Position numbers and translations under genes: made by a program. A DNA stretch of 30,767 bases. It comes from Verrucomicrobia bacterium UBA3222 (GTDB taxonomy: Bacteria; Verrucomicrobiota; Verrucomicrobiia; Opitutales; UBA9783). A model generated the notes under the pieces. It was not told where the DNA came from. It did not search any database and saw only the letters and a list, made by a program, of their open reading frames with translations. The stretch covers positions 1 to 30,767 of the forward strand of contig DEWA01000024.1 in the NCBI GenBank assembly GCA_002363035.1. The letters are read 5' to 3'. Positions within the stretch are counted from its first letter, which is position 1, and each line of letters starts with the position of its first letter. Of this stretch, positions 3,586 to 19,254 are shown piece by piece.

Positions 3586-3638
3586 AGCACTTGACTTATC
3601 TAAAAAAAATTCTTTCAGAGAGGGTGCGTACAGCGAAG

Positions 3639-6434: not shown

Positions 6435-7066
6435 TGGAGCAACGGCGTTGCATACAGGGAAGGATGCGGAAAATGGGTTTTCATGGAAAGAAAAATAAGT
6501 CGCCGTCGGAACGTAGGGGTGATGCTTTGAAAAATGCTTCGGGCAATGCGTCTTCGAAGGATTCGAAGAAATTGACGGGCGGGAAACCGTCGGGAGTTGC
6601 GGTATCTCAAGAACGTGTTTTGCATACCGCTTCGCCGGCGGATATTCTCGGTGTTCAACCGAAGCCGTCGGTTCCGAAAAAAGAAGCTTCCGTTCCAAAG
6701 AAATGGGAGCCGTTTTATCGCAAGCTGTTGCGTCTGCAAACGCTTCTGACGGATGGAAATGTTGCGTCCGAGGAAGGCGATGAGGAATTGTTGGAGTTCG
6801 TATTTGATCGATCGCGAACGCTTGCGGAGGTCAAAGATGCGATCGAGCGTATTTTTAAGGGTACCTACGGCGTTTGTGAATTAACGCGCAAACCGATTGC
6901 GCTTGAACGACTGTCTGCCATTCCCTACACGCGTTACTCGTTGGAAGGGCAACGGCAGGCGGAAGCATTTCGTTCCGATGCGTTTTCTTCGGAAGAGGAG
7001 GAATTGGATACGAATGCAGACAGAGAAGGATTTTCGTACACACCCGATGAGTTGTCGGATGAGTAA
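6434..7066 (+). CDS. DksA/TraR-family protein with a long basic N-terminal tail
   Basis: A 210-aa protein. Residues ~1-95 are rich in Lys, Ser, Pro and Gly and look disordered. Then comes a helical segment and the DksA-type C-terminal motif GTYGVCELTRKPIALERL followed by AIPYTRYS. DksA proteins bind RNA polymerase through the secondary channel and modulate transcription with ppGpp. The zinc finger is mostly lost: only the Cys in GVCEL remains, and the later cysteines of the canonical C4 site are absent. The C-terminus is acidic. It starts at the ileS stop (TAATG) and overlaps lspA by 8 bases, so the three genes are surely one operon. I recall this order (ileS, dksA-like, lspA) from Verrucomicrobiota, which supports the organism guess. 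Confidence 0.85.
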   Translation: MEQRRCIQGRMRKMGFHGKKNKSPSERRGDALKNASGNASSKDSKKLTGGKPSGVAVSQERVLHTASPADILGVQPKPSVPKKEASVPKKWEPFYRKLLRLQTLLTDGNVASEEGDEELLEFVFDRSRTLAEVKDAIERIFKGTYGVCELTRKPIALERLSAIPYTRYSLEGQRQAEAFRSDAFSSEEEELDTNADREGFSYTPDELSDE

Positions 7067-7508
7067 AACGTTTCGGACTTGGTTTTCCATTGCCTTTGGA
7101 ACGGTCGCGGCGGATCAGCTGACAAAGGCGGTTGCGTTGCATTTTGAACCGTATCATTTGCCGATTATTCCGAATTTCTTTTCTTTAACGCTGACGACCA
7201 ACAGCGGGAGCATTTGGGGCTTGGGTGCGGATTACACGCAGGTGTTGGCGTGGTTGGGAATTGTTTTCGTCCTTCTTTTGTGCGTTTTTTTTCGTTCTTT
7301 CATTCAAAAACACCCGATGACAAGCGGCTTCCTGACGGGCGGAATGGTCGGCAATACGATCGATCGCTTTGCGCGCGGGTATGTAACGGATTTTTTGGAT
7401 TTTTACATTCAATCATGGCATTGGCCGTGCTTTAATGTCGCCGATATCGCCATTACGGGAACGTGTCTGTGGCTGATGTTCGGCGGCGGGGCGATGAAAG
7501 AGGGTTGA
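7059..7508 (+). CDS. lspA: Lipoprotein signal peptidase (signal peptidase II)
   Basis: A 149-aa inner-membrane aspartyl protease that cleaves prolipoprotein signal peptides after lipid attachment. All family motifs are present: ADQLTK (Asp19), TNSGSIWGL for the usual NxGxAF motif, GGMVGNTIDR with catalytic Asp102, and FNVADI with catalytic Asp129. Four hydrophobic segments are visible. The ATG at 7059 inside the end of the upstream gene (ATGAGTAA) gives a normal length; longer in-frame starts would add a basic tail that lies over the previous gene. It is the last gene of the operon. Confidence 0.95.
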   Translation: MSKTFRTWFSIAFGTVAADQLTKAVALHFEPYHLPIIPNFFSLTLTTNSGSIWGLGADYTQVLAWLGIVFVLLLCVFFRSFIQKHPMTSGFLTGGMVGNTIDRFARGYVTDFLDFYIQSWHWPCFNVADIAITGTCLWLMFGGGAMKEG

Positions 7509-7538
7509 AATTGCCTGTTTTTTCGGGTTCAAAAGGCG

Positions 7539-7601
7539 TACGGAGCATAAGAACCTTCGACGGGTTCCGATGTGCTCCGTAAAATAAGTTTGTTTTTACG
7601 G
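7539..7601. terminator. Overlapping hairpins between convergent lspA and phage-block ends
   Basis: Hairpin 1: TACGGAGCA (7539-7547) pairs perfectly with TGCTCCGTA (7573-7581), and a second helix GAACC/GGTTC sits inside it. Hairpin 2: CCGTAAAA (7577-7584) pairs perfectly with TTTTACGG (7594-7601). The two share CCGTA, so they cannot form together. Their place between converging genes suggests a bidirectional terminator. Neither has a perfect trailing T-run on the plus strand, so the mechanism is uncertain. Confidence 0.5.
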
Positions 7602-7715
7602 TGAAGGAAAGAAACGTTGTACAAGGATATCGGCAGTTTCGTCTTGGTGCTTTCAGAGAGTGTTGAAAATGCAAAGCGGAGGCGGAGGGGTCGAGATCTT
7701 TCGCTGTTTATTCTC

Positions 7716-7748
7716 GTCGGTTGTCGATAGACCAGCTTTAAAACCGAC
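7716..7748 (-). terminator. Possible hairpin after the last phage-block gene
   Basis: A perfect 7-bp inverted repeat, GTCGGTT (7716-7722) and AACCGAC (7742-7748), with a 19-nt loop. It lies 40 bases past the end of the phage block, read on the minus strand. No strong T-run follows, so it is only a weak terminator candidate. Confidence 0.3.
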
Positions 7749-7787
7749 AAAGCACAAACTTATTTTTTCGCGGCGTCACAACATCCC

Positions 7788-8513
7788 TTATGCCTGCTCT
7801 GTTTTCTCGAACGTATAAAATTCGGGCGTAATTGTAAATTCAATCAATTCACCTTCGATTTCGTTCGGTGAATAAAGGGAACGCAGTTCGACGGGAAACG
7901 TTTGCTCCATCAAAGCGGTGTTCAGGGTGCTGAGAGTATGCCAGTTGGTGCGAACATTCGGGGTCGGAGCGGTGCGAATTTCGAATTCGACCATATTCGG
8001 GTTGTCCATGGAATAGCCGTCTTCGCCGAAACGAAAGTTAATGCCGATCGGTGTTTCCAATGGTAGCAGTTTATCGGTGCACAAACGCGGAAGTTTTTTG
8101 GAAAGTTCGGTGCTCTGTTGTTGCGCCTTCTTGAACGCCGCATCGTTATTTTGCCCGATTTGGTTTCGTTGAGCGATCGGAACGGAAGCATCGAACGGCA
8201 TGCCGAGACCGAGAGTGACGCGCGTTTTTGTTTTGGCTTTGGCATCGGATGCTTCGAAATTCCACGGATTGAAACCGCGAATGCGGTCAAGTAAGTCCGA
8301 TGTCGCCCGCGGTTCCAACTCCAGCAGGTGTTTGATGTGATCGTCGTCGATGCGGTAGTGGTACGCAATCGTCAGTTTTTTTAAGTTCCAATACCAATGA
8401 GAGTAAGTTTTCAGCGGGACGCGTACGGTGGCGAAATTATAGGGTGTTTCGGGGTGAAGCAGGATGGCGTTGCTGACCCCGAGGGCGTTGACGAAAGTGC
8501 GGTACGGTTGCAT
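7788..8513 (-). CDS. Unknown protein, last gene of the phage block
   Basis: A 241-aa soluble protein with no signal peptide or membrane segment. I recognise no family. The middle (about 85-150) is charged and Gln/Lys-rich. The C-terminal third has alternating polar/hydrophobic stretches such as MVEFEIRTA and GELIEFTITPEFYTF, suggesting beta structure. Its place after the hub-like gene is where phages often put baseplate or fibre-related genes, but nothing in the sequence proves a structural role. It starts 58 bases after the previous gene, with no Shine-Dalgarno sequence, and shares strand and composition with the block. Confidence 0.7.
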   Translation of the reverse strand: MQPYRTFVNALGVSNAILLHPETPYNFATVRVPLKTYSHWYWNLKKLTIAYHYRIDDDHIKHLLELEPRATSDLLDRIRGFNPWNFEASDAKAKTKTRVTLGLGMPFDASVPIAQRNQIGQNNDAAFKKAQQQSTELSKKLPRLCTDKLLPLETPIGINFRFGEDGYSMDNPNMVEFEIRTAPTPNVRTNWHTLSTLNTALMEQTFPVELRSLYSPNEIEGELIEFTITPEFYTFEKTEQA

Positions 8514-8571
8514 GGCAGCGTGGTGTTAAAAGGCGTTCATTTGACGAAAAATCGGACGATGAAGCGGAAAT

Positions 8572-10278
8572 TTAAGAGGACGGGATCCAAACGGTCTTCA
8601 GTTCGCCGTTTTCCACAACGGCAAATTCTTTGAGTTTGATTTCGGTTTTTTCCGGCAACGCGGCGGCATTGAGGATCACCTTCTTGTTTTTATCCTTAAT
8701 CGTCAGCTGTTTGCACTGTCCGCGGTCGATCATCGAATTGACCAACGGCGTCATGTGCGGGAAGTACGTTTTGGTGCTTCCGGAGCGTTTGGCGGCAAAG
8801 CGTGCGTTCGTATCTTCCGTGATGGTTCGCATGCGGTGTGTGTGCATCAGCTGGCAAAGGTCATTTGGGCCGAGTTGCTTCGGCGCGCCGAATTTCAGTT
8901 GTACCGTTCCCGAATCCAAAAAGGAGCGTTCTTCCTGCACCGGGAGCCGCAATTTGCGCCATTCGGCGTGACCGTCGGTAAAATTCAGCGTTTGTCCCAT
9001 AAAGGAATTGGATAATTCTTCGCATTCCAGACGCAATTGACCTTCGTAACGCAGGCAGTGCGCGGCGTCGTAGATAATTTTTGCCAAATGCTTCGGCGGT
9101 TCCGTGCCTTCGCTGAGGAAAATTACTTTTCGATAGGTGCGCGAAACGGCATCGGTGGCGCAAAATTTAAGGGAAAACGTTCGGTTTTCGATCGCGCTGT
9201 CGGCGGTTTTGTAACTGACGTCGGCGGTAATCGTTGCATACTCCGCGCGGCATCCCATCCACGGCGCAACGGCTCCTTTGGTCAGTTCATTTTTCAGTTT
9301 CGTCGAACAGCGCACGTTGGAAATTTGAATGTCCTTATCCGCCGTTTGACTCAAACAGGGAAAATGATCCTTCCACCAGGCGACCGAAGCGGTTTCGATG
9401 GGTTTTGTTTCCACATACTGCTCCTGAACGTGCGAATGCGTGCCTTCCAGTTCAATCGTCAGCACCAGTGCATTGAAGCCTTCGCCTGCGTCTTTGTTCG
9501 GGTAGGCGTCCGTCGTAACGGTTTGCCGGGTTTCGCCCGATTGAGAATGTGAATGTTCGTACTTCAGTACGACGGCCTTGATTTGCAAATCGTTCCTCGG
9601 AACCATCGAAAATTGCGAACACTTCGAGAGCGATAAAGCGGTTGTTCCGAGACGATCGGCGCGCGCGATCCGCAACGTCGGTTGCGGCGTTGCGTAGTCG
9701 AACCAAACGACCGCATCGGGCGTCCAGCGCAAAATCTTCATCAATGCTTCGGCGCAACTGCAATCGCGAACGGTTTCGCAGGGAAAGGCGAAATCAAATC
9801 CGACAATATCGCCGCAGGCAATCGGTGCGCCGTGGTTTTGGGCGTAGGTGACAATATCCCGCAGGCATTGCGCGGCGTTCACGGGTTTCCCGTCTTTATC
9901 CTGTCCCAGCAGGCACACGCTGCGCGGAACGATTTCGGTTTTTCCCGTTCCGTCCTTGAAATACTCCCACGGCTGTTGGAACACCAGATGTTCCAGGTAC
10001 CACGCGGGTCCCGAAACACGGCAGGTTGCCAATTCTTGCGTTGCGCCGTAAAAACAGGGGGTTTGCGTGATGCGTCCGCAGAACCAACGTATGTCGTCTT
10101 TGAAAATTTCAATCACGCTCTCGGCGGCGAAGGATTGCGCCGATGAAGTTGTTTGAAACGTCAGTGTGTCGGTTCCCTGATTAAGAACGTGCCGCTCGAC
10201 GTTGAAAATGCCCCATTCGGACAGAGATTTCTTCTGAACGCGCTTATCGGGTGCCTTGCAGGATAAAAACCAAGCCAT
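8572..10278 (-). CDS. Large phage tail/hub-like structural protein
   Basis: A 568-aa protein starting at an ATG that overlaps the previous stop (TGATG), which argues against the longer in-frame start at 10326. The N-terminal third has beta-rich stretches with WFCGRITQT followed by RVSGPAWYLEHLVFQQ, a pattern I associate with baseplate-hub or tail proteins of Mu/P2-type phages (gp44/gpD-like). This is pattern recognition rather than a firm match. The C-terminal ~40 residues are Lys-rich and strand-like and end in WIPSS. No enzymatic motif is evident. In the gene order it occupies the slot of a tail-tip or hub protein although no tape measure precedes it. Alternatives: tail spike, or adaptor sealing a short tail. 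Confidence 0.7.
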   Translation of the reverse strand: MAWFLSCKAPDKRVQKKSLSEWGIFNVERHVLNQGTDTLTFQTTSSAQSFAAESVIEIFKDDIRWFCGRITQTPCFYGATQELATCRVSGPAWYLEHLVFQQPWEYFKDGTGKTEIVPRSVCLLGQDKDGKPVNAAQCLRDIVTYAQNHGAPIACGDIVGFDFAFPCETVRDCSCAEALMKILRWTPDAVVWFDYATPQPTLRIARADRLGTTALSLSKCSQFSMVPRNDLQIKAVVLKYEHSHSQSGETRQTVTTDAYPNKDAGEGFNALVLTIELEGTHSHVQEQYVETKPIETASVAWWKDHFPCLSQTADKDIQISNVRCSTKLKNELTKGAVAPWMGCRAEYATITADVSYKTADSAIENRTFSLKFCATDAVSRTYRKVIFLSEGTEPPKHLAKIIYDAAHCLRYEGQLRLECEELSNSFMGQTLNFTDGHAEWRKLRLPVQEERSFLDSGTVQLKFGAPKQLGPNDLCQLMHTHRMRTITEDTNARFAAKRSGSTKTYFPHMTPLVNSMIDRGQCKQLTIKDKNKKVILNAAALPEKTEIKLKEFAVVENGELKTVWIPSS

Positions 10279-10484
10279 CAGTGTCGCGCCTGTTTCAGCT
10301 GTTCCTCCAATTCCGCAAGCCGGCATTCAAGGTCGGCGATGCGATTGAGTTGCTCGTCGTAAGCGTCCGAGAGTTCGTTGTAGCTTCGGCGATTGCCGAA
10401 GTCGTTATAGTAGTCGGGTGAGGACATCATATTTTTAAACATCGTGTTATTCATAAAATTTCGGGTGTTGGTGTTATCATGCAT
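10278..10484 (-). CDS. Small Asn/Met-rich protein with a C-terminal coiled coil
   Basis: A 68-aa protein. The first ~35 residues are rich in Asn, Met, Asp and Tyr (for example MFKNMMSSPDYYNDFG). The last ~30 form a clear heptad-type helix (LNRIADLECRLAELEEQLKQ). The ATG at 10484 overlaps the preceding gene's stop by 8 bases, and its own stop overlaps the next start (TGATG), so the three genes are translationally coupled. A longer in-frame opening from 10715 would lie entirely over the previous gene and is basic shadow sequence. The function is unknown; a small oligomeric spacer or assembly chaperone between tail parts is possible. It is far too short to be a normal tape-measure protein. Confidence 0.65.
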   Translation of the reverse strand: MHDNTNTRNFMNNTMFKNMMSSPDYYNDFGNRRSYNELSDAYDEQLNRIADLECRLAELEEQLKQARH

Positions 10485-10887
10485 TGACGTGCAGTCTTCC
10501 GCCGTAGATTTCATACGTCGTATAAGAAGCATTGCCTTTGTAATGCGTTTGAACGGATGCCAGGGTGGCGGATTCCAATGTGAGCGTCCGCACGCGCGAA
10601 CCTTCCGATTGAATGAGAACTTCGCCGTGCGCGTGTGCGATTTCGCTCGCATGCACAAGCATGTGTTCCATCGCCGCCGATTGGTCGTTGTGCAACCGTC
10701 CGACTTCAAAAACAAGCCGAACCTGCAGATTGCCGCGGTCGTAGGTCTGAACGGAAGCCGCGCGCACGGCTTTAACGGATTGCAATGTGCGTTCCGCCGT
10801 TACGGATATGTGCGTCGGTTCTTCGTTCACTGCGGTTCCGCCCGCCAAAACGTAGGATTTTTGGTCTGTTTTAAGCGTAATTTTCAT
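10477..10887 (-). CDS. Unknown phage-block protein (possible tail component)
   Basis: A 136-aa protein that begins with an ATGA overlap on the gp37-like gene and overlaps the following small gene by 8 bases. Secondary structure looks mainly beta (KITLKTDQKSYVLAG, HISVTAERTLQSV, RTLTLESATLASV) with a central His/Ala helix. There is no signal peptide and no membrane segment. In Mu-type order this slot comes after the tail-terminator-like gene and would hold a sheath or tube protein, but it is much too small for a sheath. A minimal tube, collar or stopper protein is possible. I do not recognise a family. Confidence 0.65.
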   Translation of the reverse strand: MKITLKTDQKSYVLAGGTAVNEEPTHISVTAERTLQSVKAVRAASVQTYDRGNLQVRLVFEVGRLHNDQSAAMEHMLVHASEIAHAHGEVLIQSEGSRVRTLTLESATLASVQTHYKGNASYTTYEIYGGRLHVNA

Positions 10888-11333
10888 ACATTCGAAACGT
10901 TAAAATCGGAAGTTACAAAATGCAGTTGCAACGCGGTGCCGTTCGTCCAATCAAGCCGCGTCCACGGTTCTTTTTCGGTCAAAACAAAGCGCCCGTTCCA
11001 GAGATTATCGACAATCAGCGGCTTTTCGGTAACCCAAAAGCTTATTCGCTCCGCCCAATCGATAAACGCGGAGGCTTCGTCGTATCGCAACGATTGCGCC
11101 AGCGTGAGATTGAGCGACAACGTTCCCCAGCAGGACGATGCCAACCCGAGCGTTTGCAACGGAAACGGCAACGAAACGAACAGCAGGAACGGTTGCGTTT
11201 GCGCAACCTTTAAGGCGATCAGTTCGTCGACGGAAAAGGCGTCGCTTGCAACAACGGTCATCGCGTTTTTAAGCTCCGATGCTTTGAGGGTTTCAATCAG
11301 CTTGGTTTGAATGCTTCGTAAAATCGGTTTCAT
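10884..11333 (-). CDS. Mu gp37-like neck/tail-terminator candidate
   Basis: A 149-aa protein starting MKPILRSIQTKLIETLK, an amphipathic opening helix typical of gp37/DUF1834 and other tail-terminator proteins. It has a central hydrophobic strand QPFLLFVSLPFPLQ and ends in a strand-rich segment. The assignment rests mostly on its position right after the gp36-like connector and on size. The next gene starts within its stop codon (ATGA). It would act at the head-tail joint. Confidence in the exact family is modest; confidence that it is a real gene of the block is high. Confidence 0.65.
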   Translation of the reverse strand: MKPILRSIQTKLIETLKASELKNAMTVVASDAFSVDELIALKVAQTQPFLLFVSLPFPLQTLGLASSCWGTLSLNLTLAQSLRYDEASAFIDWAERISFWVTEKPLIVDNLWNGRFVLTEKEPWTRLDWTNGTALQLHFVTSDFNVSNV

Positions 11334-11360
11334 GATTGTTCTTTCAACGGAAGCGGGACA

Positions 11361-11804
11361 TTAAAATCCTTTCAGTGTCGATTGGCGCGCGTCGCGTCTG
11401 CGGTAATGCACCGCTTCGATGCGCGGGTCGGTGACTTTCGGGTTTGATTGTTTCTCCCACATCGCTGCCAGGTCATCGAGCGTTTTGCGTGCCTGCTGTG
11501 CGTTGCGGATTTGGTCGTCCGACAATTTCAGATCAGGCAAACGCGATTGCAGAGCTTCGATTATCAAGTGGCATGCGGCGGTTTTGCATGCCGTCGGAAG
11601 GTGATTGAGAGCCGTCGGGTTCGGATGAAACTTTTGCGGTACGCGATTTTGAATGTACGCGCAAATATCGTTTATAACGGCATCGATGTGCTTCGGATCG
11701 CCTTTTTCGCGGAAGTTATTTACAACCGACAGTTGGTCTTGAATGAGGTAATCCGAAATATGTTTGGCTTCGAGAAGTGTCCAGGGAATGGAGATAACGG
11801 GCAT
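11361..11804 (-). CDS. Mu gp36-like head-tail connector
   Basis: A 147-aa mostly helical protein. The core ISDYLIQDQL...INDICAYIQNRVPQKF and the helix DDQIRNAQQARKTLDDLAAM match the all-helical connector fold of gp36/DUF1320 and related head-completion proteins, in which one helix bundle docks on the portal ring. The C-terminus is a basic tail with RRRDARQSTLKGF, compatible with an ordered extension. It follows the capsid gene after 70 bases and precedes the gp37-like gene by 27, the Mu-type position. No Shine-Dalgarno sequence is visible before the ATG. Confidence 0.72.
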   Translation of the reverse strand: MPVISIPWTLLEAKHISDYLIQDQLSVVNNFREKGDPKHIDAVINDICAYIQNRVPQKFHPNPTALNHLPTACKTAACHLIIEALQSRLPDLKLSDDQIRNAQQARKTLDDLAAMWEKQSNPKVTDPRIEAVHYRRRDARQSTLKGF

Positions 11805-11874
11805 TGGAAAAAATGTTTAAGGGTTGATGAAGGTTGTGAGAGAGGGCGCGGAGCCCTCCCTCAATGTGTTTGTG

Positions 11875-12813
11875 TTACGCGCCTTTGACTTTGATTTGCA
11901 GGATGTTGGTAGCGGACGTAACGACGATATTGCTGTAATGTTCGACGGTAATATCGGTGTACTTGGTGTGCGGTTCGACGTAGACGCGGAACAGGTGACC
12001 GTCGTCGAACGGCGTCACAAAGCGTTTAACGGCGGACGGTTCGTCTTTTAACAGTCCGTTTTGGGCGTAGAACGCGAAGATTTCGTCACCTTCCAATTCT
12101 TTGCCTTGCAGACCTAAATGCACCTGTTTGATCAGTTGCACGTTTTCGACAAGCAGTTTTTCTGCCAATGCTTCGCGCGACAATTCCGCCGATATGTGAG
12201 CACCGGCGTTATCCTGCGCCGCATAGCAGTCCTGCCGGAGGTACCATGCGCCTTCGCTGAACAACAGACGGTTCGGCGAAAATCCGTAGTCGGAGCGCGC
12301 CGTCAGGATTGCGTTGCGTATATCCGCGTCCGGTTGCGCTTTTTCGCCCGCCCAGGCTTCCGGTTCGACGATTTGCTTTTTGGCTTTCTTCTGAGCCGCT
12401 TTGATGGTTTCGACGAATGCCTTAATCGTGCGACGGTATTCGTTGCAACAAAGACGGTTTTTGAGCGCATAAACATAACGCGCTTCCCAATCGCCGCCGG
12501 CAATGTCGTCGGTGTCCACGCGAACCGTGAGACCTTTGTTAAATGTTTTCGCCTGGATCGTTTCGCCGTTGAAATCGATGTGCTTGAAACTGCTGCCGAC
12601 GGTGCGAATGTCGTCGTTCTCCGAGTAAAACGTATCGTTGTCGGCGATCTTTTTGTACTCAAAGCGACGCGCGACGAACACGATCGGTGCGGCGAAATTC
12701 AACGCCTTTTCGATGTCTTCGTTGCCCTGCGACGTATTGGCGAATTGCGTCAGTTCAGACGAGTAGTAATTTTGATTGAATTGGGTTTCGTTTGCTTGTG
12801 TTTCGGTTGCCAT
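11875..12813 (-). CDS. Probable major capsid protein
   Basis: A 312-aa protein in the position of a phage major capsid protein, right after protease/scaffold and cement-like genes. Features fitting an HK97-type fold: an extended polar N-terminal arm (~1-35), the opening ALNFAAPIVFVARRFEYKKI, a helical middle with a charged segment TIKAAQKKAKKQI, and a beta-rich C-terminal part ending VTSATNILQIKVKG. It has no membrane segment and no catalytic motif. I do not match it to a precise family such as Mu gpT; the call rests on length, position and composition. The gene is only 12 bases downstream of the cement gene, so the two are cotranslated or tightly coupled. Confidence 0.75.
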   Translation of the reverse strand: MATETQANETQFNQNYYSSELTQFANTSQGNEDIEKALNFAAPIVFVARRFEYKKIADNDTFYSENDDIRTVGSSFKHIDFNGETIQAKTFNKGLTVRVDTDDIAGGDWEARYVYALKNRLCCNEYRRTIKAFVETIKAAQKKAKKQIVEPEAWAGEKAQPDADIRNAILTARSDYGFSPNRLLFSEGAWYLRQDCYAAQDNAGAHISAELSREALAEKLLVENVQLIKQVHLGLQGKELEGDEIFAFYAQNGLLKDEPSAVKRFVTPFDDGHLFRVYVEPHTKYTDITVEHYSNIVVTSATNILQIKVKGA

Positions 12814-12825
12814 AAGAGGATGGGG

Positions 12826-13245
12826 TTATTTGAGGTTGTACGGGAGGGTGGTGAGGGCTTCGATGCGATCGTCTTTCCCGCCACTCGAAAGTGCCAAACC
12901 GACGATGTTGTTGCCGTCCGATTTTTTGGCGAAGCCGTCTTTGGTAAAGCTGATGAATTCACCGGCTTTGACGGCATCCGCCATGAGAATGCGCGCCGTT
13001 TGACCGTTGTTGGACAGCGGCTGAACGGATACGTAGGTTTTGTCGTCCGAAGCGGTCGTGTCGCGCAGGGCGATCCCCCAGGGAATGCTCTTTTCGGAAC
13101 ACGGCACGACGAACTGCTCGTCATTGTCAAAGCTGACCAGCATGCCGGCTCGAACCGCGCTTCCCGGTTTGAGGCGCTTGGTGAGAGCGCCCTCGAAAAA
13201 GCCAACGGCATTTGCGTTGGACATGATTTTACGATGTGTACTCAT
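12826..13245 (-). CDS. Capsid cement/decoration-like protein
   Basis: A 139-aa, Gly/Ser/Thr-rich beta protein with segments such as LKPGSAVRAGMLVSFDN and VKAGEFISFTKDG, and the closing GLALSSGGKDDRIEAL. This repeats the 'parameter becomes X under Gly-rich turns' pattern of DUF2190-type head-cement proteins that stabilise phage capsids. It sits between the protease/scaffold and capsid genes, the usual place. An alternative start at the internal Met (13224) is possible. The ATG at 13245 is preceded by AACCT and no Shine-Dalgarno sequence. Confidence 0.7.
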   Translation of the reverse strand: MSTHRKIMSNANAVGFFEGALTKRLKPGSAVRAGMLVSFDNDEQFVVPCSEKSIPWGIALRDTTASDDKTYVSVQPLSNNGQTARILMADAVKAGEFISFTKDGFAKKSDGNNIVGLALSSGGKDDRIEALTTLPYNLK

Positions 13246-13277
13246 AGGTTAAAAAAAGGTTAAGAAAGTTGTTAAAT

Positions 13278-14237
13278 TTACGAATGTTCCGTCACCGTCA
13301 TCGGTTTTAACGATCGCGGTACGAAATTGCTGCGGTTCGGACGAGCGATCGGCGGTTCGGAATGTTCGCCTTCCGTTGCATTCGGACGATTGTTTGCAAA
13401 AACCGACGTTGTTTGATGAAGCAGTACATTCCAAGCCTCGGGATAACTTTCGCCCGTCGCTTTCATGCGCGCCCGAACCGCCTGTCCGAACTGCAGAATG
13501 CGTCGTTTTTCTTCGCGCGTTTGTGCACCGTGTAAATCCGAGGAAAGTGGTGTTCGGTGACCCGAGAAAGTGCCTTCATCGGATGATAAGGGCAGGGTAG
13601 GGCGTTGTGTGTCGACGGCCGGTGTCGTCGGTTCGCTTTTTTTGAAAAACGCCCGACGGATGCGTTCGATGAACGTTGCAAATCCCTTGTGAAGTCCGCC
13701 GTCGGGACGAACGCCGCCTGTTTTCGCGTGCGACGCTTTGGGCGAAATCTGCCGTTTCTTCAAAAATCGCAGGAGGGTGCGAAGTCCGAAGTTTTTTTTC
13801 GGCAACGCATTGAACACAATCGGTCGAACGGGTAAATTCGGGTGTTGTGTCAGACCGACGGAAAGGAGACGTTCGGGATGATAAGCGGTTTGATGCTCCG
13901 TTTTGCAAAGCACCCAGCGCGGTGACAGGTATTGTCCTGGCGATTTAGACAGAAAGGAGCGACCGTCCTTTGTGAATTTCACAAACACCCACAGACCGTC
14001 TTTATCGGCACGCAAATTTTTCACATAGCCGTAAATGCGCGGATCCGAATGTTCGCTCTTAAACAGCGGATCGTCGGGGTGCCCGAGATAGACGGGGATT
14101 TTTTTCAGCCCGAGACGGAACCGCCACGTGCGTGTTTTCCGAATGCAACGTTGCGCGTCGGCGGACGAGATGCTTTGCAGACCCTCGGGATGTTCGAAGG
14201 TGCCGTAGGGCGATAAATGAAGTTTGAAAGTTTTCAT
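13278..14237 (-). CDS. Mu I-type prohead protease with C-terminal scaffold region
   Basis: A 319-aa protein. Residues ~45-140 carry the Mu gpI (Peptidase_Mu_I) signature in order: IPVYLGHPDD (His53), IYGYVKNLRADKDGLWV, SPGQYLSPRW and SVGLTQHPNLP. These form the serine-type protease that trims the capsid interior. Residues ~150-319 are low-complexity, basic and Ser/Thr/Pro-rich, as in a scaffold that is degraded during head maturation; in Mu the scaffold is the C-terminal part of the same gene. It is one long intact frame. It starts 17 bases after the portal gene. This is one of the surest family calls in the block. Confidence 0.88.
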   Translation of the reverse strand: MKTFKLHLSPYGTFEHPEGLQSISSADAQRCIRKTRTWRFRLGLKKIPVYLGHPDDPLFKSEHSDPRIYGYVKNLRADKDGLWVFVKFTKDGRSFLSKSPGQYLSPRWVLCKTEHQTAYHPERLLSVGLTQHPNLPVRPIVFNALPKKNFGLRTLLRFLKKRQISPKASHAKTGGVRPDGGLHKGFATFIERIRRAFFKKSEPTTPAVDTQRPTLPLSSDEGTFSGHRTPLSSDLHGAQTREEKRRILQFGQAVRARMKATGESYPEAWNVLLHQTTSVFANNRPNATEGEHSEPPIARPNRSNFVPRSLKPMTVTEHS

Positions 14238-14254
14238 GGATGTTTGGTTTTTGA

Positions 14255-15451
14255 TTACTTTTGAACGGTATCGTTTTTATCCGTCGGCGGATTGATGCCG
14301 AAGTGTTCGCGAATGTCGTTGAGGCTCAGTTGTACGCCCATGTCCCACAGCGTTTTCAAAATCGCCAGGTCGTTGTTGAGGTTTTTGTTTGGCGAAGGTT
14401 TCAGGTGAAAGTAGGCTTTCGGAAATTCGATCTTTTCCAGATGCCTCAAAACAGCCCGATCGACCTGTTCATTGAGCGTATCGGAAATCATTTGCGCATC
14501 GTCTTCCTCCAACAGATCGCGTTCGTTGCGCTGTTGCGTAACGCCGACAGCATTTTCGCGCCCAAGCGTCGTCAAATCCGAGCCGCGCCAAAGTGCCGCC
14601 ATAGCGCGATCCATGCGCTCCACCAACTTCGGATACGGCAATTCGCCTTTTCCGGAAATATCAATCGCCTGAATATCCGTTCCGGCAGACATCAATGCGT
14701 GAAATTCCGCACCGAAATTCTGCACCGCTTCGCGTGCAATTTCCCATTCGGCGGAACCGGGACGCGCCTGCGTGATGCCTTTGACGCCCGGCATGCCGTT
14801 GCGCTCGCAATAAATCAGCCAGTCGCGCAAGGGCAGATGTTTGAACAGGTAAGCGATGGAGCAGGATTCCATCAGTCCGTCGCCCGTGGTGATGAGCCAT
14901 TCGTCCGAAGACAAAGGAATATCTTTATTGCCTTTGTCGCCGACGAAATGCAATCGCCCGTCTTTATTTTCGAAGAAAAACAGCGGTACGAAGCGAAATT
15001 CCGCCGTTAATAATGACTGTCCGTCCTTTTGAAAGGGCTTGAAGACCACCTCGTGTACCGCATAACGCTTCCCGACGGCATCCATCATTTGGCGGATGAG
15101 CAACGGCAGACCGCCGCGTTCGTTCTCGTCGTAGGCGTTGATGCAGGAAAGGTGATTGTAGAACTGCTCCAAAATCTCCTTTTGTCGCGCGGCTTCTTCG
15201 GAATTATCCAGCGTGAGAATTTCCCAATCGAGGCGCGAAATCGACTTCTTGCGTTTTGAAATCACGCCCTGGAGCAGGTCGTCGCGGCGTTCGATGGCGT
15301 CCCAAACAAGGGCGGCCGGTCGCAGTTTGCCCGCGTGGAAATCGTCTAAAATGCGCGCCAGCGATGTCGGCGTCAACGAACGAATGGGGTTCCAGTTCAG
15401 CCGCGCGAGGCTGTCGCGACGCAACGGTGTTACGTAGGTATTGGTCTTCAT
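14255..15451 (-). CDS. Phage portal protein, Mu gp29/DUF935 family
   Basis: A 398-aa portal protein: the dodecameric ring through which DNA enters and leaves the head. Family hallmarks seen: an opening with RSLTPTSLARILDDFHAG, then LVWDAIERRDDLLQGVISKRKKSISRL (the paired-helix stem entry), ALWRGSDLTTLGRENAVG, and ERDLLEEDDAQMISDTLNEQV near the C-terminus. I start it at the ATG at 15451, which lies inside the upstream stop (ATGA); the longer in-frame extension to 15652 is Arg/Ser-rich and lies over another small gene. It is slightly shorter than many gp29 proteins. Protease and capsid genes follow directly. Confidence 0.9.
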   Translation of the reverse strand: MKTNTYVTPLRRDSLARLNWNPIRSLTPTSLARILDDFHAGKLRPAALVWDAIERRDDLLQGVISKRKKSISRLDWEILTLDNSEEAARQKEILEQFYNHLSCINAYDENERGGLPLLIRQMMDAVGKRYAVHEVVFKPFQKDGQSLLTAEFRFVPLFFFENKDGRLHFVGDKGNKDIPLSSDEWLITTGDGLMESCSIAYLFKHLPLRDWLIYCERNGMPGVKGITQARPGSAEWEIAREAVQNFGAEFHALMSAGTDIQAIDISGKGELPYPKLVERMDRAMAALWRGSDLTTLGRENAVGVTQQRNERDLLEEDDAQMISDTLNEQVDRAVLRHLEKIEFPKAYFHLKPSPNKNLNNDLAILKTLWDMGVQLSLNDIREHFGINPPTDKNDTVQK

Positions 15452-15720
15452 GACAAAACGGAGAAAAAGCGGTTGTGAACGGTGGCGGGAACGAAGGCGT
15501 TCGCGCATAATGCGTTGCCGACGTTCGACGGATGTTGACTGCTGCGACGTTTTCGCGGCGGCGGTGTTTGAAACTCGGGTGTATTCATAAGATTTAAAGG
15601 ATCGAAAAACGCGGGTACCTTCATAAGACGGGAGGTTTTTTCGGGAAAACAATTTCCGTGGTCGAATTCTCCGCCGAGGCGGTTTGCGACTTCGAATGTT
15701 TCGTTTTTGTACGTATTCAT
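15448..15720 (-). CDS. Small unknown protein between terminase and portal
   Basis: A 90-aa gene starting 14 bases after the terminase stop and ending in an ATGA overlap with the portal. The tight fit on both sides makes it likely to be real. The sequence is polar, with FPEKTSRLMKVPAFFD, a Pro/Arg stretch TPPPRKRRSS and a hydrophobic end. I recognise no family, and there is no signal peptide. The classic Mu gene order has no such gene here, so it may be lineage-specific. An alternative is that the region belongs to a longer portal start, which I think less likely. Confidence 0.6.
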   Translation of the reverse strand: MNTYKNETFEVANRLGGEFDHGNCFPEKTSRLMKVPAFFDPLNLMNTPEFQTPPPRKRRSSQHPSNVGNALCANAFVPATVHNRFFSVLS

Positions 15721-15734
15721 GATGTCAAAGGTGT

Positions 15735-17057
15735 TCAGAAGCAGGCGGTCGGTTTTTGAAAGTGAAACAGTTCGGCAACGGCACTTGATGAGGTTTGTTT
15801 TCGATCAGCATGCAATGCCAGTGCCAAAGCCCAAAAGCGGTCGGCGTGTCCGTCGGAACCGTGTTGTGCCGTCAATTTCATGTCCTCCGAGATGCGAACG
15901 GCGAGCAGATCGGAAATCAATTTTTCGTCGCACGGAAGCCGCAGAGTGCGTTGTTCGATGTGCGTTTTCAAATTGTAGGCGAGCGTTTCCTTGGTGCTTT
16001 GCGTGAATTGCACGCCTTCGACGGCAGTGCCGAAACGCATCTGTGCGCGTTCCAGAAATTGCCGCCCGATGCCGGTTTGATCGACGCAGACGCGTTGAAC
16101 ATTAAAATTGCGAAACAGTTTCTCAAAGAGGGCTTCCTGTTCGTCGAAACGCGCGTTTTTAAGACACTGCACATGACGAAGAAAGAAGGTGCCTTCGACT
16201 TTTTCGACCAAAACAAAGGCACTGAGATCCTGCGTTCGGGCGAGATCGACGCCCATCAAAACCGTGCCGTTCGTCCATGAGCACCAATCGCAGTTTTTGT
16301 CATAAAAGCACCGTTCCAATGCTTCGTACGACAACAACGTCGACGCGTCTTCCATCGGTTGGCACATGTATTCCTGCAGAAAGGCTTTTTCGGTGGCGCA
16401 GGAATTTTTTATGAAATTGTAATAATCGCCTTCGTCCATGGTTTGGCGCGGGTCGTCGGGCGGGAGTTTGGCTTTTAATTTTCGCAAAAATCCCTGTTCC
16501 AGCGCGTCCGACAACGTGACGCGATGCAGAGAGATGCCTTTCGGATTGCCGCCGTTGCGCGCTTCCTCGATGAGACGATTGAAGAAGTTGTGCGCGCCGC
16601 GGTGCGTGGAAATCATCTCCAACTGCCCGCCCCAGGTAATGCCCGGATAAGCGACGTTGTAGAGGGCTTCGGGATCTTCGTGCAGAGCGAATTCGTCCAA
16701 AATCCGCGATCCGCGTTTGCCGGCCTGTGCATTGATATTGGAAGAAATCAATGTCAGCGTACTGCCGTTGTTGAGGCGCAGGATCGTGCGTTGCTCCGAT
16801 TGTCTCCCGATCAGTTTTTCCTGATATGCCTGATTAAGGACGGACGCGAAGGCTTTGCAGTCGTTGAGAAACAGTTGCGCCTGTTGCAGATCGCGGGAGC
16901 AAATCCAGATGTGCGTTCTCGGATGAACGGCGGCATTTCGCAATGCGCGGTACGCCGTTGACCACGAAAGACCGATTTGTCTGGATTTTTCCATAATTTT
17001 GATACGCGCATCATCGCGGATCCAGCGCACCTGGTAGGGGAGAAAGAAGGGCGTCAT
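15735..17057 (-). CDS. Large terminase subunit, Mu gp28-like
   Basis: A 440-aa DNA-packaging motor. The ATPase half has the Walker A-type motif KSRQIGLSW (residues 24-32), Walker B RILDEF (118-123, with catalytic Glu122) and coupling motif ISTHRG (~149-154). The nuclease half has acidic residues in GVDLARTQD (Asp271), then VCVDQTGIG and HADRFWALALAL. All expected elements are intact, so the enzyme should be able to package. The ATG at 17057 overlaps the stop of the small subunit-like gene (ATGA). A longer in-frame start at 17270 would add a basic, Arg/Pro-rich tail typical of a shadow frame. Confidence 0.93.
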   Translation of the reverse strand: MTPFFLPYQVRWIRDDARIKIMEKSRQIGLSWSTAYRALRNAAVHPRTHIWICSRDLQQAQLFLNDCKAFASVLNQAYQEKLIGRQSEQRTILRLNNGSTLTLISSNINAQAGKRGSRILDEFALHEDPEALYNVAYPGITWGGQLEMISTHRGAHNFFNRLIEEARNGGNPKGISLHRVTLSDALEQGFLRKLKAKLPPDDPRQTMDEGDYYNFIKNSCATEKAFLQEYMCQPMEDASTLLSYEALERCFYDKNCDWCSWTNGTVLMGVDLARTQDLSAFVLVEKVEGTFFLRHVQCLKNARFDEQEALFEKLFRNFNVQRVCVDQTGIGRQFLERAQMRFGTAVEGVQFTQSTKETLAYNLKTHIEQRTLRLPCDEKLISDLLAVRISEDMKLTAQHGSDGHADRFWALALALHADRKQTSSSAVAELFHFQKPTACF

Positions 17058-17386
17058 AACATTTGCAGTTGGTCTTCGATGTCCTTGAGAACGTCTTCCG
17101 ATAAAGTCCAGGCGTTGTTGTCGGCGTTTTCGGAAGCGGATTTTTGACACACGGCAAACAGCTGTCGGTAAGTTTGCAGGAGCTTGTGAAGAATGCCCGT
17201 CAGTTCTTTCACCGTACTTAAGTCCGATTGGGCTTCGTCGACGCATAAACGGTCGAAGAGTTTTTCCCACAAAAGCCCCATGGATTGTTCCGCGATATTC
17301 ATTTGTTCGAGGAGTGAAGCGGTATTTTTGGCGCGTTGAATGCGTTGCAGGTGCTCTTTAAAGGCGATCGGCGTTTCTTCGTTCAT
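17054..17386 (-). CDS. Mu gp27/DUF3486-like protein, probable small terminase-type subunit
   Basis: A 110-aa helical protein directly before the large terminase and overlapping it (ATGA), the place of gp27/DUF3486 in Mu-type phages. It is nearly all alpha, with KEHLQRIQRAKNTASLLEQM and TVKELTGILHKLLQTYRQLF. The ending LSEDVLKDIEDQLQML resembles the conserved tail of the family. These proteins are thought to act as DNA-recognition small subunits. The expected N-terminal helix-turn-helix is not clear. I use the ATG at 17386; the previous gene ends at 17358, giving a 29-base overlap. Family match moderate. Confidence 0.68.
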   Translation of the reverse strand: MNEETPIAFKEHLQRIQRAKNTASLLEQMNIAEQSMGLLWEKLFDRLCVDEAQSDLSTVKELTGILHKLLQTYRQLFAVCQKSASENADNNAWTLSEDVLKDIEDQLQML

Positions 17387-17642
17387 CGTTGAGAAAATCA
17401 ATTCCTTTGACGGACAGTTTGTAGCGTCGGTGTTGCGGGCAAAGTTCGTTCGGGACGAGCTCCACGAAGTCCTTGGCGTGCAAATACGCCAGTTCCTTTT
17501 CCAAAAACCGCCGTCGGATGCGCAGCCCCGAGAGAAACAGACCGAGTTTGAGGGTTTTCATCGGCAGCGAATGCGGATAAGCGGCATCCAGTTGCAACAA
17601 CAGCGTGCGTCGGACAAATTCGTTGAGAACAAATTCAATCAT
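17358..17642 (-). CDS. Winged-helix protein, VpaChn25_0724-like
   Basis: A 94-aa basic protein with a winged-helix pattern: helices LNEFVRRTLLLQLD and SLPMKTLKLGLFL, the recognition-type helix RRRFLEKELAYLHA, then the wing DFVELVPNEL and RRYKLSVKGIDFL. This matches the VpaChn25_0724 group found in Mu-like prophages just before gp27 and gp28. Its role may be DNA binding during packaging or transcription control. It has one of the few visible Shine-Dalgarno sequences (AAAGGA, five bases before the ATG). It starts 9 bases after the holin-like gene. Confidence 0.7.
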   Translation of the reverse strand: MIEFVLNEFVRRTLLLQLDAAYPHSLPMKTLKLGLFLSGLRIRRRFLEKELAYLHAKDFVELVPNELCPQHRRYKLSVKGIDFLNDERRNADRL

Positions 17643-17651
17643 AAAAATCCT

Positions 17652-18104
17652 TTAATGTTTCAAATCCACAAGCGCGCTTCCGAAGTACAGCCCGACGATG
17701 GCGGAAAGAAGATGCGTATCGAGCGGCGTAATGACGAGTCCGTTCAGTTGTACCCAGTGAAGTTTTTCATAAGCGGAGGAGAAAAACAGGAGCCCGCCCG
17801 ATCGTTGCGAGTAACCGACCGAAATCGGAACGTTCGGGTAAAAAACGGCAATCAGTTTCGGCCAGGCGATGACGAAGAAAACCGCGATAAACGCGATGGC
17901 GCGCCGCGTCAGTTGCAGTCCCGACGCTTTACGCGCGCTGACGACGGTATGTTCGATGGCGCGCGTTCGGCAGAGGCGCATCAGGTGTTCGCGGTGATGC
18001 GCCATCATGAAGAAACTGAGTAAGCGGATTCCGCTGCCGAGAAGCGACGATCCGAGCAGCGAAACCAGTTCCGAGGGGAGGGGTGTTGAGGCGAAGGTGT
18101 TCAT
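17652..18104 (-). CDS. Small membrane protein, possible three-TM holin
   Basis: A 150-aa membrane protein, first gene of the block. Hydrophobic segments lie at about 5-25 (short), 70-95 (AIAFIAVFFVIAWPKLIAVF) and a C-terminal stretch LLSAIVGLYFGSALVDL. The ending is similar in style to three-TM phage holins of GTA and Mu-like clusters (PLD...LLGxxG), so a holin role is possible. No endolysin gene accompanies it. The ATG at 18104 lies about 8 bases after a candidate -10 box, so the message may be leaderless; an earlier in-frame start at 18128 would lie over that promoter. Function inferred, not shown. Confidence 0.62.
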   Translation of the reverse strand: MNTFASTPLPSELVSLLGSSLLGSGIRLLSFFMMAHHREHLMRLCRTRAIEHTVVSARKASGLQLTRRAIAFIAVFFVIAWPKLIAVFYPNVPISVGYSQRSGGLLFFSSAYEKLHWVQLNGLVITPLDTHLLSAIVGLYFGSALVDLKH

Positions 18105-18112
18105 GTGCCCCG

Positions 18113-18141
18113 AGTGTAACGAAAACACCCGATTTCCTCAA
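18113..18141 (-). promoter_or_regulatory. Candidate promoter of the phage block
   Basis: On the minus strand, TTGAGG (18136-18141) is followed after exactly 17 bp by TACACT (18113-18118). Each box matches four of six consensus bases. Transcription would start near 18105-18107, only a base or two before the ATG at 18104, predicting a leaderless or near-leaderless mRNA. The start also fits because a terminator separates this promoter from sfsA. Confidence 0.5.
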
Positions 18142-18150
18142 CGCTTGCAT

Positions 18151-18176
18151 GGGCTACAGCCCGCTCTGTTGGCTGT
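18151..18176 (-). promoter_or_regulatory. Operator-like overlapping inverted repeats
   Basis: GGGCTACAGCCC (18151-18162) is an inverted repeat with 5-bp arms, and ACAGCC (18156-18161) pairs with GGCTGT (18171-18176). The shared GGCT/AGCC half-sites occur three times within 26 bases, ending ten bases upstream of the candidate -35 box. Such an arrangement suits a regulator that controls the block. Confidence 0.35.
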
Positions 18177-18312
18177 TTGGAGAGGATTGTGTTGCGCGGG
18201 ATGAGGTTTTGGAAAATTGATCGAAACCGATGAAAAATCGACCCGAAAACGAGTTGTTTTTTTACCCGAAAAGGCGTGTTTGATGCAAAGAGCAATTCAT
18301 GTATGTTTTTAA

Positions 18313-18339
18313 AAGGGTATGAACAATCAATCTACCCTT
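18313..18339. promoter_or_regulatory. Perfect 7-bp inverted repeat upstream of the phage block
   Basis: AAGGGTA (18313-18319) and TACCCTT (18333-18339) flank 13 bases. No T-run follows on either strand, so a protein-binding site is more likely than a terminator. It lies between the sfsA terminator and the block's promoter. Confidence 0.3.
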
Positions 18340-18349
18340 CTATGGTATC

Positions 18350-18379
18350 AAAACACACATCGGTGTGCCGATATTTGTG
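18350..18379 (-). terminator. Rho-independent terminator after sfsA
   Basis: On the minus strand, CACA-AAT-ATCGG pairs with CCGAT-G-TGTG across a 4-nt CACA loop, leaving a small internal loop, and TTTT follows. It lies about 50 bases past the sfsA stop. It would end the dnaX–sfsA transcript before the phage block. Confidence 0.6.
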
Positions 18380-18430
18380 CTTAACGGCGCAAATTTCTTT
18401 CAGAAAATGTGTATTTGTAACGCGAAGCGG

Positions 18431-19168
18431 TTAAAAAACACTCGGCTCGATTTGAAAATACTTTCCAAGTACAACCGCTTCCGGCGTCACCCGGAAGTTC
18501 GCCTGCCACATTTCCAGACCGCGTTGCAGGCAGCCATGTACCAAGTCGGAAACTTCTTTGTAGCGCGTACTCGGTTGCGCCACACGAAAACCGGGGTTTT
18601 CGTAGAGGAAACAGAGCAACAGAATGGCGCGCTGATGCGTTTGCAGGCTTTTTGTTAAATCCTTTACGTGCTTAACGAGGCGGTCGACGGAGGAAAACGG
18701 CGACGACTTTTTCCGCTTCACGTACGGCGGAATGTCGATTTGCAGAAACTGCAGCGGCGTTTTGACCTCTAAATAGGTGTTGCCGACGAGAAAGTCCAAT
18801 TTTGAATTTCCGAGTATTTGTTCGCGCAGAACCGTTTGTGCTTTCCCGACCATCGCTTCGAAGCTTCCGTTTTTAAGGTAATGTTCGACATAACGGTTTG
18901 CGGCATTTTGGTTGATGCCGATCCAGGTTTTTTGAGAATCACTTGGTTGGTTTAACGAAATTGCTTCCACCGTGAAAGCCGTTTTACGGTTTTTGTCGGT
19001 ACTTTCGGATAACAAACAGGGACGCTCGTCCAATGTGATGTCGCCAACGTTCCCCGTTGTCGGACAATGGCAGTGATACTTTCGTCCTTTGTACGAGACA
19101 TCCATGGTGAACTGCGTTTTTCGTTTGATGATAATGCCTTCGAGTAGGGGGTGGGGATGATGGTACAT
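18431..19168 (-). CDS. sfsA: SfsA family protein (sugar fermentation stimulation homologue)
   Basis: A 245-aa protein with the SfsA layout: an opening PHPLLEGIIIKRKTQFTMDV, then CHCPTTGNVGD, and the nuclease-like core SKLDFLVGNTYLEVKTPLQF containing Asp125, Glu134 and Lys136. It ends in FRVTPEAVVLGKYF. SfsA proteins have a PD-(D/E)XK-like fold and are reported to bind or cut DNA; the physiological role is unsettled. It is a divergent member. I use the ATG at 19168 because family members begin exactly at this motif; the TTG at 19288 would overlap tau. It follows dnaX in the same transcript. Confidence 0.85.
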   Translation of the reverse strand: MYHHPHPLLEGIIIKRKTQFTMDVSYKGRKYHCHCPTTGNVGDITLDERPCLLSESTDKNRKTAFTVEAISLNQPSDSQKTWIGINQNAANRYVEHYLKNGSFEAMVGKAQTVLREQILGNSKLDFLVGNTYLEVKTPLQFLQIDIPPYVKRKKSSPFSSVDRLVKHVKDLTKSLQTHQRAILLLCFLYENPGFRVAQPSTRYKEVSDLVHGCLQRGLEMWQANFRVTPEAVVLGKYFQIEPSVF

Positions 19169-19254
19169 GGTTGTGTTGTTAAGAGTTACATCGGATGTAA
19201 AAACCGTGATCGACGGCGATAAAAACAGGTCTAAATTCCATTCATTTTGCGTAT

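Follow-up and report, generated by a model that had tools for sequence, protein, structure and literature searches.

A chromosomal Mu-type head and packaging block in a reduced Opitutales genome: a candidate gene transfer agent

The block and its setting

Contig DEWA01000024.1 of Verrucomicrobia bacterium UBA3222, a stretch of 30,767 nucleotides analysed at its full length and called here the window, carries at positions 7788-18128, on the minus strand, a DNA-packaging block of 14 genes in which every frame is intact. In order, these encode a membrane protein, a 94-aa protein, the small and large terminase subunits (TerS and TerL), a portal, a protease, a decoration protein and the major capsid protein, followed by two connectors, a ring protein of tail-tube/Dit fold, a coiled-coil protein, a tail hub and a variable last gene. 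The host is a gut bacterium whose 0.96 Mb genome is 90% complete and whose nearest named relatives are Opitutales. Very likely, we are dealing with a DNA-packaging module that was domesticated from the head of a Mu-type phage and is passed on vertically, and we consider it probable that this module works as a very short-tailed gene transfer agent (GTA), making particles and transferring DNA. A first-pass annotation had described fifteen co-oriented intact genes: the shared orientation, the place and the absence of any broken frame are borne out, while the count becomes 14.

As that annotation had stated, core genes lie on both sides, with ileS, a dksA-like gene (dksA below) and lspA on one and sfsA and dnaX on the other; the block is a chromosomal, phage-derived head and packaging cluster among host genes. 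The gene named ileS (3591-6434) encodes a class I tRNA synthetase read as IleRS; a leuS-like gene adjoining the block of one related locus (L090) is a separate gene. Base composition had been described as like that of the core, to which it is near without being equal: GC content is 0.522 in the block against 0.508 in ileS-lspA, 0.500 in the stretch from dnaX on and 0.471 in the remaining window, and GC content at third codon positions is 0.62 in the block against 0.54. Again in agreement with the earlier description, Pfam and PHROG searches of the block proteins recognised no integrase, transposase, repressor, replication or endolysin gene within the block. Of the direct repeats of at least 14 nt reported for window 6900-19400, none pairs the two block ends. 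Recent insertion was considered and rejected, there being no such end repeats and no empty site seen. A PF03354 search of the host's own genome was empty; the TerL of the block belongs to PF17289. A scan for promoters and terminators was uninformative (2 promoter-like sites against 6.8 expected, 23 terminator-like sites against 21.0 expected).

TerL (15735-17057, 440 aa) matches PF17289 (4.8e-20) and PF03237 (2.2e-12), and its start overlaps the stop of TerS (17054-17386), a 110-aa Mu gp27-like protein corresponding to only the C-terminal part of the TerS of phage-type relatives. The portal (14255-15451), of Mu gp29 type and 398 aa long from a conserved MKT start, matches PF06074 at 2.9e-60. 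Some 280 bp (15452-15734) separate the TerL stop from this conserved start; an N-terminal portal extension bridges the interval and aligns only with L032, a locus of the same genus. Next come the Mu I-type head protease (13278-14237; PF10123 2.8e-5, with 24.3 bits against a cut-off of 25.2; phrog_328 1e-5), the decoration or cement protein (12826-13245; PF09956 2.8e-5, phrog_673 3.3e-13) and the major capsid protein (11875-12813; phrog_1005 5.5e-8). At E 0.01, the block genes other than TerL, portal, protease and decoration gave no Pfam match.

The head-tail connector (11361-11804), without a Pfam match, holds a conserved position in the alignment, and we take it from position and pattern to be Mu gp36-like; the second connector (10884-11333), without a family match, was placed by the alignment of relatives and is presumably, by position, Mu gp37-like. 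The ring protein (10477-10887, 136 aa) is assigned a tail-tube/Dit fold; its profile found no match among PDB sequences. A coiled-coil-like protein of 68 aa (10278-10484) has a counterpart of 39-66 aa in seven of the nine other loci examined. The tail hub (8572-10278, 568 aa) has the fold of Mu gp44, T4 gp27 and VgrG according to an AlphaFold2 model (pLDDT 83.7), which Foldseek matched to the extracellular contractile injection system structure 7aef_q (6e-15) and to Mu gp44, 1wru (4e-10). The last gene (7788-8513, 241 aa) has no family match at E 0.01 (phrog_1982 appears only at 0.21) and is 24-29% identical between genera; its product is possibly a receptor-binding part. At the opposite end, the first gene (17652-18128) encodes a 158-aa membrane protein with hydropathy peaks near residues 21, 78 and 131. 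It matches phrog_38283, a family of unknown function, at 1e-7, as do all six first-gene proteins tested, the window's own included; going by position, one might guess at a holin-like candidate for release. The 94-aa protein (17358-17642) matches phrog_436 at 8e-6 and also occurs in phage-type relatives (1e-5 in L097); an HxlR helix-turn-helix (HTH) match, seen only at E 0.15, makes it a possible DNA-binding protein.

Selection and inheritance with the host

The structural and packaging genes are under purifying selection. Ratios of nonsynonymous to synonymous substitution (dN/dS, Nei-Gojobori) were computed for six genome pairs, five of them usable (two with six block genes only) and the sixth, G003-G006, saturated. 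Values for block genes were low, as the first-pass annotation would lead one to expect, at 0.02-0.38 overall: portal 0.03-0.06, TerL 0.04-0.09, capsid 0.025-0.14 and TerS 0.07-0.11. Corresponding figures for core neighbours were 0.08-0.09 for ileS, 0.04 for dnaX, 0.09-0.16 for lspA and 0.19-0.23 for dksA. Fastest among the block genes were the protease, at up to 0.38, and the last gene, at up to 0.28. In the window's genus the protease evolves several-fold faster than most of its neighbours (0.28-0.38); in genus g4 it gave 0.04 over 142 codons compared.

Low dN/dS and frames intact across the window's family, in genomes so small, tell against the block being a decaying relic, an ancient and defective Mu-like prophage that happens to have been inherited. 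Such a relic would suit the lack of any transposase, full tail or lysis gene recognised in the block, and a few relatives do have interrupted or split portals. Block genes are kept even where TerL and portal lie apart (see below), however, and this explanation is disfavoured as highly improbable.

Used as a probe, PF06074, which also catches unrelated prophage portals, found a portal in 30 of 50 related genomes, including all nine of the window's family with one copy each, and in 15 of the 16 genomes of at most 1.3 Mb. With the window portal as query, 66 of the 141 genomes of the order match. Genomes of the window's family measure 0.7-1.1 Mb. All 13 larger genes occur in the same order in seven of its eight other members, beyond chance; the eighth (G001) has the first six block genes and then the contig end. 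Exactly one Terminase_6C was found in 24 of the 27 genomes searched, among them 9/9 of the window's family. The ileS-dksA-lspA group adjoins the block in two genera whose ileS genes are about 73% identical; elsewhere the neighbours are ligA and prc, uvrD and a peroxiredoxin gene, or biotin carboxylase and class I tRNA synthetase genes. An empty site with att repeats, named in advance as evidence against a resident block, was not seen: a portal and one terminase are present in every family genome and no repeat pairs the ends. Together with the shared neighbours and low dN/dS, this supports, as far as genes go, the proposal of a GTA derived from a Mu head.

Portal and ileS trees were compared for 28 of the 30 genomes, G050 and G137 being dropped for want of a full ileS. 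Five families, f1 (8 genomes), f27 (6), f7 (5), f28 (4) and f26 (2), form single groups in both trees, and the same four genus pairs recur in both inside f1. Support is 78 for f27 in the ileS tree, 92 for f7 in the portal tree and at least 96 for the others. The agreement points to vertical inheritance with the host lineage, although the portal tree resolves the deep, between-family branches only weakly. From 23 of the 30 genomes rpoB was also obtained, 22 of these having a portal. Inside the window's family, portal/rpoB distances were 0.05/0.04, 0.31/0.53 and 0.47/0.76; in pairs where at least one portal was of another, prophage type they were 5.36/0.09, 3.72/0.27 and 4.08/0.30. A positive rank correlation of portal with rpoB distances (r 0.44; 32 of 5000 permutations) was seen only in a 12-genome subset chosen by hand for its closer portals.

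These trees bear directly on the idea that related Mu-like phages inserted independently in each genus and then decayed. Flanks do differ between most genera, as random Mu insertion would give. Portal and ileS trees nevertheless agree in five families, which largely refutes independent insertion within families, the deep branches being weak; two genera have the same neighbours, and relatives share the absence of both a 310-aa tail gene and the TerS N-terminus (see below). We find this history barely credible.

Elsewhere the block has been scattered. No TerL adjoins the portal in any of the four f28 genomes taken (G041, G106, G117 and G128), and in two of these, G106 and G117, the Terminase_6C search was empty. 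The clearest case is G128. There rarA adjoins TerL on one side; on the other, past one unassigned open reading frame (ORF), a penicillin-binding protein gene follows at a distance of about 1.2 kb. The portal and protease sit between infB and a 5'-3' exonuclease gene. In G103, of family f27, TerS-TerL is followed by another gene, and the portal-to-hub part is on a second contig that ends just past the portal. In a further locus, L066, TerL, TerS and the 94-aa gene are inverted upstream of the remaining block.

TerL and portal apart among core genes in a related family argue against a self-contained prophage. This weakens the alternative offered with the first-pass annotation, a prophage whose early region is at another site, as do the single terminase per family genome and a portal tree that follows the host. 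Put more broadly, as a satellite or a split prophage that still makes phage and has its early or tail region at another site, the alternative is very unlikely. Phage-type relatives with more tail genes, one of them (L097) with an endolysin, and a window genome that is 90% complete leave some room for it. Neither the Mu DDE_2 transposase, sought genome-wide (0/27 genomes, no control genome positive), nor the 310-aa tail gene sought elsewhere in the genome (0/26, without a positive control) was found. A satellite needing another phage in the same genome was rejected, given one terminase per family genome.

The packaging motor and the shortened tail

In all 38 TerL sequences from related loci and phage-type contigs, the Walker B aspartate and glutamate and the three nuclease aspartates are invariant. 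The P-loop lysine lies within EKSRQIG in 29 of these, the remaining nine all belonging to loci with a phage-type TerS; in L097 a lysine is at the GKS position instead. The two kinds of TerS differ in length. In phage-type relatives the ORF before TerL mostly has 165-290 aa, with an HTH-like N-terminal region, while in the window and its relatives a short TerS of mostly 98-151 aa aligns to the C-terminal part of the phage-type protein. Longer exceptions among the short type are L040 (256 aa), L049 (178 aa), L060 (198 aa) and L193 (192 aa), the N-termini of L040 and L060 looking low in complexity. None of 15 short TerS sequences matches any HTH family, and Mu gp27 matches 4/15 short and 4/22 phage-type sequences. 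Against PDB sequences, phage-type TerS gave homeodomains (E 0.002-0.3) along with plakophilin and tubulin. By eye, the N-terminal HTH-like repeat appears duplicated in the TerS of L097 (2895-3704), L104 (4232-5023) and L108 (6054-6917). According to a review, the putative small terminases of known GTAs are all without an N-terminal DNA-binding (HTH-like) domain, and the window's 110-aa TerS likewise lacks the N-terminal stretch that contains it in phage-type relatives.

The tail shows a parallel difference. Phage-type relatives carry a gene of about 310 aa between the second connector and the ring protein, which from its position probably encodes the tail tube and which is absent from the window block. 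Over the 106 loci with a TerL match, a short TerS went with no 310-aa gene in 26 (17 without duplicates) and a phage-type TerS with the 310-aa gene in 23 (22 without one duplicate); 49 loci were unreadable for the tail gene and five readable ones had an unassigned TerS. The simplest particle would be a head closed by the connectors, one ring and the hub. The 310-aa gene is present in an IMG/VR metagenome lineage (L089, L157-L159 and L168), and also accompanies the related block of the IMG/VR "viral" contigs L160, L161 and L167. Downstream of the block L161 and L167 have, on our own reading, a miaA-like gene, so that these contigs are perhaps of bacterial origin and wrongly classed as viral. 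PHROG matches for the extra genes of relatives were weak and fibre-like.

A domesticated phage head could instead have some other job, with no gene transfer: DNA-filled or empty shells used against competitors, delivery to a eukaryotic host, or a protein compartment. The evidence on inheritance and selection fits this equally, and a tail hub followed by a gene so variable between genera, with dN/dS up to 0.28, suits a device for delivery or killing. The TerL motor and nuclease residues and TerS, on the other hand, have been kept, needlessly so for an empty shell, and nothing resembling an effector gene was recognised in the block. We regard such a job as unlikely.

A proposed agent and its known counterparts

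A working cycle for a GTA may be sketched from what computation has revealed, namely the gene content, frames, selection, inheritance, motor residues, short TerS and hub and ring folds. The host would express the operon in some cells, and the portal would serve as the base on which the protease, decoration and capsid proteins assemble a small head. Starting on arbitrary chromosomal DNA, the TerS-TerL motor, its TerS without the N-terminal DNA-binding region, would fill the heads, to be closed by the pair of connectors, a single tube/Dit-like ring and the hub as a very short tail tip. Particles would leave by a lysis step, and relatives would take up the DNA via ComEC and DprA and then recombine it. 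Both recipient genes are present, each in 23 of 26 genomes, without being specific to GTAs.

Several observations weigh against this interpretation, in which particles, packaged DNA and transfer are the inferred part. Portal and rpoB distances are uncorrelated in rank over all 22 genomes (r -0.145; 4146 of 5000 permutations as high) and in the ten outside the chosen subset (r -0.074; 3111 of 5000), and block-type portals of large genomes outpace rpoB (1.0/0.38 for G028-G047). Above 1.3 Mb a PF06074 portal occurs in only 15 of 34 genomes, and the terminase search was empty in 3/27. A single in-frame TAG interrupts the portal of G064 (C30:11663-12847), with no other seen among the matches listed; the portals of G025 (C94) and G097 (C3) match in two adjacent parts, which would suit a frameshift or a misassembly. 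ComEC and DprA are common genes in any case. As to lysis, a GH108 endolysin was found in 0/27 genomes, with no control genome positive. HTH families match few phage-type TerS (HTH_32 4/22, best 0.02; HTH_33 3/22, best 2e-4), and the 94-aa gene might supply DNA recognition. That the short TerS arose from the phage type by truncation is likely, and no more than that because the profile comparison of the two is weak (hhalign probability 22%, E 0.001). Finally, one metagenome lineage (L089 = L168, one contig) combines a short TerS with the 310-aa gene, possibly as an intermediate stage of domestication, and the phage-type-TerS contig L110 has no 310-aa gene.

With these points considered, the window system is likely to be a GTA. 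Quite possibly, though we put it forward tentatively, domestication of a Mu-type phage in the ancestry of several Opitutales families gave rise to a GTA that shed the DNA-binding domain of its TerS together with most of its tail. It would have been kept through drastic genome reduction, leaving sub-megabase, probably protist-associated symbionts with a dedicated machine for recombination among kin that counters genome decay. If so, lineages thought to have few means of swapping genes would own one in a block inherited like core genes; an active system would offer reduced genomes a route of recombination at a stage when gene flow is usually expected to dwindle. A 2024 paper places two Opitutales families among protist endosymbionts (PMC11257099). 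Detailed work on GTAs covers few lineages, and a review asks what distinguishes them from phages (PMC12946183 and PMC11841831). The present Verrucomicrobiota case passes several genomic GTA tests. Phage-type relatives offer a comparison by which steps of domestication (short TerS, tail loss, block scattering) could be placed on a tree. Searches of the open-access literature in PubMed Central listed no title on a GTA in the Opitutales/Verrucomicrobia group.

With Mu/B3-like transposable phages the block shares the PF06074 portal, I-type protease, gp27-like TerS and gp44-fold hub; in contrast to them, no transposase, sheath, tape measure or lysis gene is recognised in it. The top-ranked portal matches in a phage collection are 26% identical and all 127 matching records fall below 60%, and the major capsid protein has one match among 50,697 phage records, with 27% identity across half of its length; the collection thus contains no close phage. 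Nearer in layout are Mu-type contigs from viral metagenomes (L097, L104, L107, L132 and others), which share the succession 94-aa gene, TerS, TerL, portal, protease, decoration, capsid, connectors and ring, with a hub in several, but mostly have a longer TerS with an HTH-like N-terminus and the 310-aa tail gene. L097 differs further in having an endolysin upstream.

RcGTA has a long tail; in the window block the portal is of Mu type, and neither a 310-aa tail gene nor a tape measure is recognised. The ring protein shares the tube fold with RcGTA, a generic fold. RcGTA-type agents of Alphaproteobacteria resemble the window system in their mostly vertical inheritance and in a TerS without an N-terminal DNA-binding domain (PMC6854486, PMC10883770, PMC11841831). 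In both cases the genomes also contain the recipient genes ComEC and DprA, which are required for receipt of RcGTA (PMC10883770).

The nearest analogue, by gene content and with the window block known from its genes alone, is FpGTA I of Faecalibacterium, a 10.5 kb block of ten ORFs with particles shown, about 40 nm across and with roughly 9 kb of DNA (PMC12946183). A similar size, TerL, portal, capsid, a TerS without obvious DNA-binding domain and the lack of a visible tail are common to both, and both occur in gut bacteria. FpGTA, by contrast, is found in Ruminococcaceae and includes a second operon that supplies baseplate, fibre and lysis genes (PMC12946183), whereas for the window system no second operon was found and the hub lies inside the block itself.

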